Below the pieces are notes generated by a model that saw only the letters and a program-made list of their open reading frames with translations, was not told where the DNA came from and searched no databases. A stretch of DNA of 64,000 bases from Brevundimonas guildfordensis. Its GTDB lineage: Bacteria; Pseudomonadota; Alphaproteobacteria; Caulobacterales; Caulobacteraceae. Each line of letters opens with the position of its first letter. Within the stretch, counting starts at the first letter, position 1. The translations under genes were made by a program, and so were the position numbers. Positions 22,330 through 41,973 of this stretch are shown here, one piece after another. The stretch lies in contig NZ_JACSQU010000002.1 of NCBI RefSeq assembly GCF_014836405.1, positions 435,046-499,045 of the forward strand, written 5' to 3'.

Positions 22330-22510
22330 AACTGCTCCGAACGCCTATCTTGCTGGACGGCGGGTCCTGCTGCGGCTCACGTCGAAGACAACATATCCTT
22401 CTGACCTTAATTCACTCATAGGGATCTGTCCCTGTCCGGGCTCGAGGGCCTGGGCATACGGAGCCCACCTGGCTACCCAGGTCGAGAGGATTTAAACGTT
22501 CTTCACGGCT
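22330..22510 (+). ncRNA. ssrS: probable 6S RNA
   Basis: 6S RNA binds the housekeeping RNA polymerase holoenzyme and holds it in stationary phase. The non-coding stretch lies exactly between zapA and fau, the conserved place of ssrS. Its 3' half contains GGGCATACGGAGCCC, then the hairpin ACCTGG-CTACC-CAGGT with flanking CGAGAGGATTT, which matches the style of alphaproteobacterial 6S 3' halves. GAACG near 22340 can pair with CGTTC near 22497, closing the ends. Boundaries are approximate and no covariance search was possible. Confidence 0.5.
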
Positions 22511-22537
22511 CACGCGGCGCCGCCAACCTCTCTCTTT

Positions 22538-39448: not shown

Positions 39449-40750
39449 TCAGCCCTCGCCGAACACCCGGGCGAAGATCACGTCGACGTTCTTGGTATGG
39501 TAGCCGAGGTCGAACAGGGCCTCCAGCTCATCGTGGGGCAGGGTGACGCGCGGGTCGGCCTTCAGGAAGTCGATGAAGACGCCTTCGCCGCGCCAGACCT
39601 TCATGGCGTTCTCCTGAACCGCCGCATAGGCGTCCTCGCGCGACACGCCCGCCTGGGTCAGGGCCAGCATGACCCGCTGCGAGAAGACCAGGCCGCCCAG
39701 GCGGTCGAGGTTCTTCTGCATGTTCTCGGGATAGACGTTCAGGCGCTCGATCACGCCCGCCAGACGGTGCAGGGCGAAGTCCAGGTGGATGGTGGCGTCC
39801 GGGCCGATGCCGCGCTCGACCGAGGAGTGGCTGATGTCCCGCTCGTGCCACAGGGCGACGTTCTCCATCGCCGGGGTCACGGCCGAGCGGACCAGACGGG
39901 CCAGGCCGGTCAGGTTCTCGGTCAGGATCGGGTTGCGCTTGTGCGGCATGGCCGACGAGCCCTTCTGACCCTTGTCGAAGAACTCCTCGGCTTCGAGGAC
40001 TTCGGTGCGCTGCAGGTGGCGGATCTCCACGGCCAGACGCTCGACCGAGGAAGCGACGACGCCGAGGGCGGCGAAATAGGCGGCGTGACGGTCGCGCGGG
40101 ATGACCTGGGTCGAGACCGGCTCGACGCTGAGGCCCATCTGGTCGGCGACGTATTGCTCGACCGCCGGATCGACGTTGGCGAAGGTGCCGACGGCGCCCG
40201 AGATGGCGCAAGTGGCGATCTCTTCACGGGCGGTGATCAGGCGGCGCTTGGCGCGCTGGAACTCGGCGTGATAGCCGGCCAGCTTCAGGCCGAAGGTGAC
40301 AGGCTCGGCGTGGATGCCGTGCGAGCGGCCGACGGTCGGGGTGTATTTGTGCTCCTTGGCGCGCTTTTCCAGCGCAGCCAGCACCCGGTCGACGCCGCCC
40401 AGCAGCAGGTCGGTCGAGCGCGCCAGCTGCACCGCGAAACAGGTGTCCAGCACGTCCGACGACGTCATGCCCTGGTGCAGGAAACGGGCCTCGTCGCCGA
40501 CGATCTCGGCCACGTGGGTCAGGAAGGCGATGACGTCGTGCTTGGTGACGCTTTCGATCTCATCGATGCGGTCGGCGTCGAAGGTCGCGTCCTTGCCCTT
40601 GGCCCAGATGGCCTGTGCGGCCTCGGTCGGGATGACGCCCAGCTCGGCCATCTTGGTGGCGGCGTGGGCTTCGATCTCGAACCAGATCTTGTACTTGGTC
40701 TCTTGCGACCAGATGGCGACGGCGTCGGGGCGGGAATAGCGCGTGATCAT
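39449..40750 (-). CDS. purB: adenylosuccinate lyase
   Basis: Releases fumarate from SAICAR and from adenylosuccinate, and so acts twice in purine synthesis. The 433 residues carry the superfamily signature GSSAMPHKRNP with the catalytic Ser loop, the HDVIAFLTHVAE and TSSDVLDTCFAVQL segments that supply active-site residues, and GRSHGIHAEP with the catalytic His. It heads the minus-strand pur series purB, purC, purS, purQ, purL. No ribosome site is apparent. The glycosylase gene follows after four bases. Confidence 0.97.
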   Translation of the reverse strand: MITRYSRPDAVAIWSQETKYKIWFEIEAHAATKMAELGVIPTEAAQAIWAKGKDATFDADRIDEIESVTKHDVIAFLTHVAEIVGDEARFLHQGMTSSDVLDTCFAVQLARSTDLLLGGVDRVLAALEKRAKEHKYTPTVGRSHGIHAEPVTFGLKLAGYHAEFQRAKRRLITAREEIATCAISGAVGTFANVDPAVEQYVADQMGLSVEPVSTQVIPRDRHAAYFAALGVVASSVERLAVEIRHLQRTEVLEAEEFFDKGQKGSSAMPHKRNPILTENLTGLARLVRSAVTPAMENVALWHERDISHSSVERGIGPDATIHLDFALHRLAGVIERLNVYPENMQKNLDRLGGLVFSQRVMLALTQAGVSREDAYAAVQENAMKVWRGEGVFIDFLKADPRVTLPHDELEALFDLGYHTKNVDVIFARVFGEG

Positions 40751-40895
40751 GGACGCGTCGTGTCGTTCGCAAGGGGCCGCGAGTCAAGGTTGGCCGGGTC
40801 GAAGTGGAGGCTTTTGGGCATCACTTCCGCGCGGATCGGCATTCTGCAGCGTGGAAATCTTGACTGCCGGGCGTCCTGTCCCAGATAGAGCGCGC

Positions 40896-40960
40896 TCAGA
40901 GGACGACCTCTCCCATTTTGGGCATGACGCCGGGACGACCCGGCACGCCATGCAAGGGAG
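40896..40960 (+). promoter_or_regulatory. guanidine-II (mini-ykkC) riboswitch candidate
   Basis: Two hairpins with identical ACGA loops lie in tandem before sugE: AGAGG-ACGA-CCTCT at 40898-40911 and GCCGGG-ACGA-CCCGGC at 40929-40944, 17 bases apart. The second is enclosed by GCATG/CATGC. The ribosome site AGGGAG (40955-40960) follows at once. This is the hallmark of the guanidine-II riboswitch, which turns on translation of guanidinium exporters. The fit to the downstream gene is exact. Confidence 0.9.
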
Positions 40961-40966
40961 ACTGTC

Positions 40967-41287
40967 ATGGCCTGGATTTTCCTTCTGCTCGCCGGTCTGT
41001 TCGAGATCGTCTGGGCCTTCCTGATGAAGATGTCGGAAGGCTTCACCAAGCCGTGGGCGACCGTCGGCACCATCGGTTTCATGATCGTCAGCTTCGGCCT
41101 GCTATCGCTGGCGATGAAGTCCCTGCCGCTGGGCACCGCCTATGTGATCTGGACCGGCATCGGGGCGGTGGGCGCCTTCGTCGTCGGCATCGCCGTGCTG
41201 GGCGAGCCGATCACGCCCCTGCGCGTCCTCGGCGCCGTTCTGATCGTCAGCGGCCTGGTTGTGTTGAAGCTCGCTTCCAGCCACTGA
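40967..41287 (+). CDS. sugE: SMR-family guanidinium exporter (SugE/Gdx)
   Basis: A 106-residue, four-helix small multidrug resistance protein of the Gdx (SugE) branch, which exports guanidinium in exchange for protons as a dual-topology dimer. The essential Glu is in LAGLFEIVWAFLMKMSEGFT near residue 13, and SLAMKSLPLGTAYVIWTGIGAVGAF near residues 45-69 is the Gdx pattern, not the Qac drug-exporter one. The AGGGAG ribosome site lies inside the region controlled by the guanidine-II riboswitch candidate just upstream, which independently supports the substrate. Confidence 0.95.
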   Translation: MAWIFLLLAGLFEIVWAFLMKMSEGFTKPWATVGTIGFMIVSFGLLSLAMKSLPLGTAYVIWTGIGAVGAFVVGIAVLGEPITPLRVLGAVLIVSGLVVLKLASSH

Positions 41288-41316: not shown

Positions 41317-41973
41317 ATGGAACTGGTGATCGGCGACAAGCTCTATTCCACCTGGTCGTTGCGTCCCTGGCTGGTGCTGAAACGCTGCGGCGCGGACTTC
41401 ACCGAGACGGTGGTGCGTCTGAACCGGCCCGACACCGCCGAGCAGATCGCGCTCCATTCGCCTGCCGGACGCGTCCCGATTCTGAAGGTCGACGGAGAGA
41501 CCATCTGGGACAGTCTGGCCATCTCGCTCTGGTGCGCCGAGCGCTATCCGGAGGCGCGGCTGTGGCCCGCTGACGCCCATGCGCGCTGGCAGGCCCGGTC
41601 GGTGGTCTGCGAGATGCATTCCGGCTTCATGGCCCTGCGCACCGAATGCGGCATGGCGCCCGACCATTCGATGGTCGGTCCCGACCGCTGTCCGCCGCCG
41701 AAAGGCGAGGACACGGCCGCCGACATCCGTCGTCTGGTGCAGATCTTCGGCGAAGCGCGCGCCCGGTTCGGCGTCAGCGGGCCTTATCTGTACGGCGAGT
41801 GGTCGATCGCGGACGCCTTCTTCACCCCGGTCGCGGCGCGGTTCCGCCACTTCCAGATCGATCTGACGGCGCACGGCGATACGGACGGCGCGGCCCGGGC
41901 CTATGTCGACACCCTGCTGGCCCAGCCCGACTTCATCGCCTGGGGCGAAGACGCGCTGGCTAACGCGGCTTAA
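41317..41973 (+). CDS. glutathione S-transferase family protein
   Basis: A 218-residue two-domain GST. The thioredoxin-like N-terminal domain starts YSTWSLRPWLVLKRCG, where the Ser of STWS is the likely glutathione-activating residue, and has the VPILKVDG cis-proline and the ETIWDSLAI glutathione site. The C-terminal helical domain contains YGEWSIADAFFTPVAAR. The pattern resembles YfcF-like or zeta-type bacterial GSTs. AGGGAG precedes the ATG. It lies 30 bases after sugE and may share its transcript. Substrate unknown. Confidence 0.9.
   Translation: MELVIGDKLYSTWSLRPWLVLKRCGADFTETVVRLNRPDTAEQIALHSPAGRVPILKVDGETIWDSLAISLWCAERYPEARLWPADAHARWQARSVVCEMHSGFMALRTECGMAPDHSMVGPDRCPPPKGEDTAADIRRLVQIFGEARARFGVSGPYLYGEWSIADAFFTPVAARFRHFQIDLTAHGDTDGAARAYVDTLLAQPDFIAWGEDALANAA

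Follow-up and report, generated by a model that had tools for sequence, protein, structure and literature searches.

Guanidine-II (mini-ykkC) riboswitches, represented in Rfam by RF01068 and in Escherichia coli by the sugE/gdx leader, are built from a pair of GC-rich hairpins, P1 and P2, with ACGR loops. In published work on the class, guanidinium stabilizes kissing between the P1 and P2 loops, and an anti-Shine-Dalgarno (anti-SD) sequence lies in the linker (PMC5486947, PMC7544219, PMC9094411, PMC9300104); the class model with a P1-P2 linker anti-SD is set out in two of these reports (PMC9094411, PMC9300104). Reported linkers span 7 to 40 nt (PMC7544219), and in-line half-points are given as about 50 to 200 µM, with a Hill coefficient of about 1.4 (PMC5486947, PMC9574504). 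Gdx proteins of the SMR family are described as guanidine/proton antiporters (PMC12186494). E13, S42, Y59, and W62 are reported to be functional residues, and W16 to be conserved in Gdx and replaced by Gly or Ala in Qac (PMC7695847).

The window, that is, the whole 64,000-nucleotide stretch of Brevundimonas guildfordensis DNA that was analyzed, contains a leader of the same design: a GC-rich hairpin pair with ACGR loops and a putative anti-SD after P1, adjoining the ribosome-binding site of a gene for an SMR pump (Table 1). The 17-nt linker fits the published range, and a G-C pair closes both loops (G[ACGA]C twice). Compared with the Rfam consensus, P1 is shorter; compared with E. coli, where the P2 loop is reported as ACGG (PMC9300104), both loops are ACGA. 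The two tandem ACGA-loop hairpins and the AGGGAG site described in the initial annotation can be read directly from the DNA. RF01068 matches positions 40895 to 40943 at 31.3 bits (E 2.6e-4; 801 bases scanned), 0.7 bits under the Rfam gathering cut-off of 32 bits, which is a reporting threshold and not a structural feature. Because of this shortfall, a gathering-threshold Rfam scan of the window misses the switch: no guanidine-II match was returned, only a 6S RNA (positions 22364 to 22524, + strand; RF00013, 49.6 bits). Searching with the guanidine-II covariance model, the check proposed initially, placed the leader first among all RF01068 matches in the genome (E 2.2e-4; runner-up, E 0.15) and still below the cut-off; no other convincing copy was found in the whole-genome RF01068 scan. 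The window RNA is very probably a guanidine-II riboswitch that senses guanidine.

Table 1. Elements of the switch-pump locus and its neighbors (window coordinates)
Feature	Position	Strand	Description
purB (adenylosuccinate lyase), divergent neighbor	39449-40750	-	TIGR00928, 489.7 bits
Putative promoter	40860-40888	+	TTGACT 40860-40865; -10-like AGATAG 40883-40888
Hairpin P1	40898-40911	+	AGAGG[ACGA]CCUCU; Rfam RF01068; loop invariant in 36/36 canonical-type loci
Putative anti-SD UCUCCC	40909-40914	+	Overlaps P1 3' strand; complement of GGGAGA 40956-40961
Hairpin P2	40929-40944	+	GCCGGG[ACGA]CCCGGC; Rfam RF01068; loop invariant in 36/36 canonical-type loci
Possible hairpin GCCAUG/CAUGGC	40947-40971	+	SD in loop, AUG in stem; in leader MFE fold; weak
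Shine-Dalgarno AGGGAG	40955-40960	+	6 bases upstream of ATG (40967); read from sequence
SMR transporter, Gdx/SugE subtype	40967-41287	+	106 aa; PF00893; E13 W16 S42 Y59 W62
GST-like gene	41317-41973	+	PF13409; 29 bases past SMR stop; neighbor outside the guanidine unit

To delimit the relatives, a protein search was used, which yielded 83 Brevundimonas genomes with a best SMR match of E ≤3.4e-33 (next genome, 6e-24). All of their leaders were inspected, and two hairpins were found upstream of the SMR gene in every one of the 83 loci. Thirty-six loci, the window included, are of a canonical type, with both loops ACGA and both hairpins directly 5' of the SMR gene in 36/36; L037, which has no SMR match within its stretch, was left out of this set. 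AGGGAG is nearly invariant in the canonical-type alignment (altered in L012 to L014 and L123). The other 47 loci are of a hexaloop type, in which the P1 loop is CCACGU (45 loci) or CCACGC (2 loci) and the P2 loop is ACGG. Of 131 congeneric genomes, 21 have an RF01068 match that exceeds the cut-off, each time immediately upstream of an SMR gene (L009 to L029), and 58 have one at E ≤0.05, weak matches counted. Conservation and a model score 0.7 bits short of gathering both back the guanidine-II assignment made initially.

The SMR protein of the window matches PF00893 at 93.9 bits (cut-off, 23.7). Its best PDB matches are 8vxu and 6wk5 (E about 2e-27), both deposited under the title "Multidrug resistance protein, SMR family"; we take 6wk5 to be Gdx-Clo. 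The window protein is 50% identical to the 6wk5 chain and shares the residues listed in Table 1; position 60 is V in the window protein and A in 6wk5, and no diagnostic difference from the Gdx/SugE subtype was seen. The NCBIfam SugE equivalog scores 105.3 bits, below its cut-off of 126 bits (a naming threshold), yet is the top-scoring NCBIfam model. G10 (presumably a pocket position), E13, W16, S42, Y59, and W62 are invariant in the 36 canonical-type, the 47 hexaloop-type, and 71 further named-locus proteins. The Gdx pattern noted initially, including W16, is therefore present, which supports a role of the window protein as a Gdx-type guanidinium exporter; model score, conservation, and pocket agree on this gene as the target of the riboswitch. 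The source genome encodes two further SMR proteins. One (L038) has G at position 16 and is Qac-like; the other (L040, G000:C3:365989-366294) is a second W16 protein, with no two-hairpin leader in the 130 upstream bases shown, and thus a Gdx-like pocket does not need the switch. Six Paracoccus SMR genes (L065, L072, L085, L096, L106, and L118) form one clade and encode the Gdx pocket; no two-hairpin leader was found for them.

From these elements, the guanidine-II riboswitch in all likelihood controls translation of the Gdx-type exporter as an ON switch, through the anti-SD that overlaps P1. TTGA[ACT] occurs 36 to 46 bases upstream of the P1 loop in 34 of the 36 canonical-type loci (the window -10 element was picked by eye), and this promoter placement suggests an RNA start close to P1, so that transcription would begin just upstream of it. 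Without ligand, UCUCCC, made up of the end of the P1 3' strand and the bases that follow, would pair with the SD bases GGGAGA and keep translation off, as their complementarity suggests. Guanidinium would stabilize the P1-P2 kiss, as published for the class, and P1 would retain its 3' strand; the SD would be released, the pump would be made, and guanidinium would be exported in exchange for protons, as published for Gdx proteins. Since UCUCCC has three bases in common with the P1 3' strand and is complementary to GGGAGA, formation of P1 precludes the OFF helix and vice versa. In a set of 32 distinct canonical-type leaders, the mean length of the longest linker-leader helix is 5.8 bp (range, 4 to 9), compared with 4.5 bp in shuffles; the 9-bp helix is in L124, and in L123 another helix is the longest. 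The 6-bp anti-SD helix of the window is not individually significant (shuffle P 0.10), and the same holds for most leaders without an extra UU after CUCCC. Nearest-neighbor folding of the window leader gives an SD accessibility of 0.69 when free and 0.73 when P1 and P2 are enforced, with the AUG paired throughout, so that from thermodynamic folding alone the switch is not evident for this leader.

The same riboswitch and ligand might instead, or in addition, act through the start-codon hairpin GCCAUG/CAUGGC, a somewhat unlikely reading. The start-codon hairpin is in the minimum free energy fold of the window leader and is formed by many of 25 distinct canonical-type segments, in some of which the start codon is GUG and the stem includes a wobble pair; the leader of L013, which differs in sequence there, makes another SD-enclosing hairpin. 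However, the mean z over the 25 segments is only -0.81 (window, -1.5), several leaders, among them L009, L014, L034, and L126, fold otherwise, and the CAUGGC half is dictated by the conserved Met-Ala start. The anti-SD that overlaps P1 is the preferred route of control.

The neighborhood bears on a further suggestion of the initial annotation, namely, that the GST gene is under the same control. The two genes are on the same strand 29 bases apart, and 31 of the 36 canonical-type loci have a GST match after the pump (in L009, a C-terminal piece only), the five without a match being L011, L023 (a short stretch), L028, L030, and L031. Synteny was compared in 24 selected Brevundimonas genomes (12 of the hexaloop type, 8 without such a pump or the CBU_0592 family discussed below, and 4 with CBU_0592), none of which has the pump beside purB within the stretch. 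In 17 of the 24, GST is divergent from and adjacent to purB without the pump at that place, and thus the switch and pump were most likely inserted between purB and GST. Furthermore, three close relatives with purB 99% identical (L028, L030, and L031) have the switch and pump and no GST match over the ~1.1 kb downstream, a GST match is missing from all 47 hexaloop-type stretches, and the GST gene has its own AGGGAG. Co-regulation of GST as part of a guanidine response is therefore highly improbable, and the suggestion is not supported. GST was rejected as a guanidine gene on the basis of synteny; it is best interpreted as a bystander of a purB-GST neighborhood that received the switch-pump unit. 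Finally, the sub-cut-off score and the shortness of the motif would also fit a chance hairpin pair ahead of an ordinary multidrug SMR gene, but the 21 congeners above the cut-off and the same position in 36/36 canonical-type loci (in 83/83 in one of two loop forms) argue that the hairpins are not due to chance, and with W16 and the other pocket residues in the protein, the probability of this reading is close to nil.

The hexaloop relatives (L128 to L174) differ from guanidine-II in that their P1 loop, mostly CCACGU, falls outside the ACGR tetraloop consensus in all 47 loci, while the P2 loop ACGG conforms to it in all 47; because of P1, this form may work like canonical guanidine-II without being filed as such. 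A permissive Rfam scan of eight hexaloop loci listed one, L140 (G073), at 21.9 bits, and the RF01068 scan of the 131 genomes lists three hexaloop leaders (G073, G113, and G118) at 21.3 to 21.9 bits, all below the cut-off. Among 43 distinct hexaloop aptamers, both-sided changes occur at two pairs in P1 and three in a linker hairpin; P2 is invariant. Of the aptamer cells, 92.5% pair; the number of paired cells and the covariation score both beat 500/500 shuffles, and the paired cells also beat all slides, with further pair types not above shuffles (363/500 as high). A hairpin 3' of P2, denoted P3, has up to 9 bp, includes the SD, and reuses the P2 3' strand, with a mean z of -1.76 in 39 distinct segments. 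In the MAFFT alignment, P3 gave no covariation signal (91% of cells pair, 0 cells changed on both sides, and 486/500 shuffles pair as well); by eye, compensatory-looking forms are present in L131 (GGCGUC/GACGCC) and L132 (GGCGUU/AACGCC), rows that MAFFT left unaligned there. The anti-SD pairing after P1 was not enriched in hexaloop loci (5.0 versus 5.0 bp in shuffles). In the open-access literature, no report was found of a hexaloop guanidine-II form or of a guanidine riboswitch in Brevundimonas.

R1, a model built from the hexaloop form, finds matches at E ≤0.01 in 70 of 299 Caulobacteraceae genomes, unchecked weaker matches counted; 47 of the 70 are at E ≤2.3e-6 (25 Brevundimonas and 22 others, by our own count). 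At the level of the class, R1 reaches E ≤1e-4 in 4 of 337 genomes. On 80 named loci, R1 gives 41 to 71 bits in two Brevundimonas, Sphingomonadaceae, Methylobacteriaceae, and relatives, and about 21 bits for the canonical form of the window. An SMR match was present in 19 of 20 non-Brevundimonas R1 loci inspected (L192 and L196 to L214); L210 (G307:C1:2422987-2423035) scores 50.1 bits with R1 and is without an SMR match in the stretch retrieved. Leaders with CCACGU or near forms and ACGG in P2 precede Gdx-type SMR genes in Caulobacteraceae, Sphingomonadaceae, and Methylobacteriaceae; further hexaloop loci are most of L192 and L196 to L214, as well as L052, L055, L057, L058, L067, L092, L100, L102, L119, and L120.

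The two loops are coupled. In 163 leaders chosen regardless of P2 (83 from Brevundimonas and 80 from named loci, with some species represented twice), a P1 hexaloop is accompanied by ACGG in P2 in 57/57 cases; with a 4- or 5-base P1 loop (87 leaders), P2 is ACGA in 71 and ACGG in 16 (L054 reassigned by eye). Another 23 loci located with R1 include 21 hexaloops with ACGG, but there the model and pattern demanded ACGG; 21 of the 186 leaders were left unclassified. Five-base AACGA P1 loops, which also fall outside the ACGR tetraloop consensus, precede SMR genes in many Acinetobacter loci within L059 to L115 and in L051, L090, and L109. An SMR tree based on 106 columns groups 38 canonical and 31 hexaloop Brevundimonas rows in a single clade (99/93); another 14 hexaloop rows from Brevundimonas fall outside it (labels corrected by eye). 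Because the loop type changed while the pump pocket did not, an unchanged ligand can be argued for. As a guess, the two extra hexaloop bases might be extruded between the closing pair and ACG.

In three genomes, R1 matches precede a CBU_0592-family membrane protein and not an SMR gene (G040, G019, and G047; L189, L195, and L222). NF047864 ("CBU_0592 family membrane protein") matches L189 and L195, the NCBIfam run covering G040 and G019 only. At E ≤1e-5, CBU_0592 occurs in 10 of the 131 Brevundimonas genomes, none among the 83 above; the switch precedes it in 3 of the 10 and is absent from the other 7. PF00893 has no match in eight of the ten genomes, including all three with the switch (one of these, G047, is only 88% complete). 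The three leaders score 59.5 to 65.1 bits with R1, within the range of pump leaders, and thus do not look decayed; these pairs could have arisen by genuine recruitment or be what was left when a pump was deleted.

The surroundings offer a context. Genes for atpC, a phosphoesterase, and/or rppH adjoin 43 of the 47 hexaloop-SMR loci, and such surroundings are also found at 10/10 Brevundimonas and 23/25 outgroup CBU_0592 loci (the family occurs in 71 outgroup genomes, with 25 of these loci scanned). Because the neighbors are the same, the slot was probably ancestral to CBU_0592, with the switch-pump unit in its place. In the 25 outgroup loci, R1 found nothing above 15 bits, and Rfam at E ≤1 gave no guanidine match in 20. 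An R1-SMR unit, in these cases with no atpC/rppH match beside it, and CBU_0592 occur together in four Caulobacteraceae genomes (G135, G166, G264, and G339), so that outside the genus the two are not exclusive.

The CBU_0592 protein is about 84 aa long, with three membrane spans by eye. Glu-x-x-Trp is invariant in 35/35 aligned sequences, as is E13-x-x-W16 in the pumps; a distant SMR relationship was tried and rejected (hhalign probability, 5%), the families not being detectably related. The L189 copy matches no Pfam family at E ≤1, no solved relative was found by sequence, and no paper on the family was found in the open-access literature. Judged from sequence and genomic context, CBU_0592 is a candidate new guanidine-linked protein. 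The fuller proposal, that the hexaloop relatives constitute a guanidine-II-like class that is asymmetric and so far undescribed (P1 CCACGY, P2 ACGG, and a strong hairpin that sequesters the SD and invades P2) and that CBU_0592, controlled by this switch in the three genomes, is a second, unrelated guanidinium exporter in the atpC-rppH slot, is tentative and, taken as a whole, unlikely.

Altered relatives of guanidine riboswitches have a precedent in the guanidine-IV variant Gd4v, for which the published account describes no association with sugE and weak guanidine binding in one tested sequence (PMC9788692). Unlike Gd4v, the hexaloop form keeps Gdx-type pumps in nearly all loci inspected. For the isolated E. 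coli ACGG hairpin, no detectable binding is reported (PMC9300104), and ACGA is absent from both loops of the hexaloop form, which constitutes a natural switch with two unlike loops and a tool for the question of whether P1-P2 kissing is intramolecular or takes place between RNAs. Guanidine-IV has implicated the PnuC and MATE families as guanidine exporters (PMC7736828), and CBU_0592 is likewise a transporter family proposed through its riboswitch; in contrast to those families, it is about 84 aa long and stands behind the switch in only three genomes seen. If CBU_0592 moves guanidinium, it would add one more exporter family to a short list. The pump of the window, which automatic annotation might label as a transporter of quaternary ammonium compounds, can be interpreted as a guanidinium exporter under riboswitch control. 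The window thus holds a further guanidine-II/Gdx pair, a pairing of a known kind and by itself ordinary; the interest lies in its relatives, with their loop variant and the candidate guanidine-linked protein.
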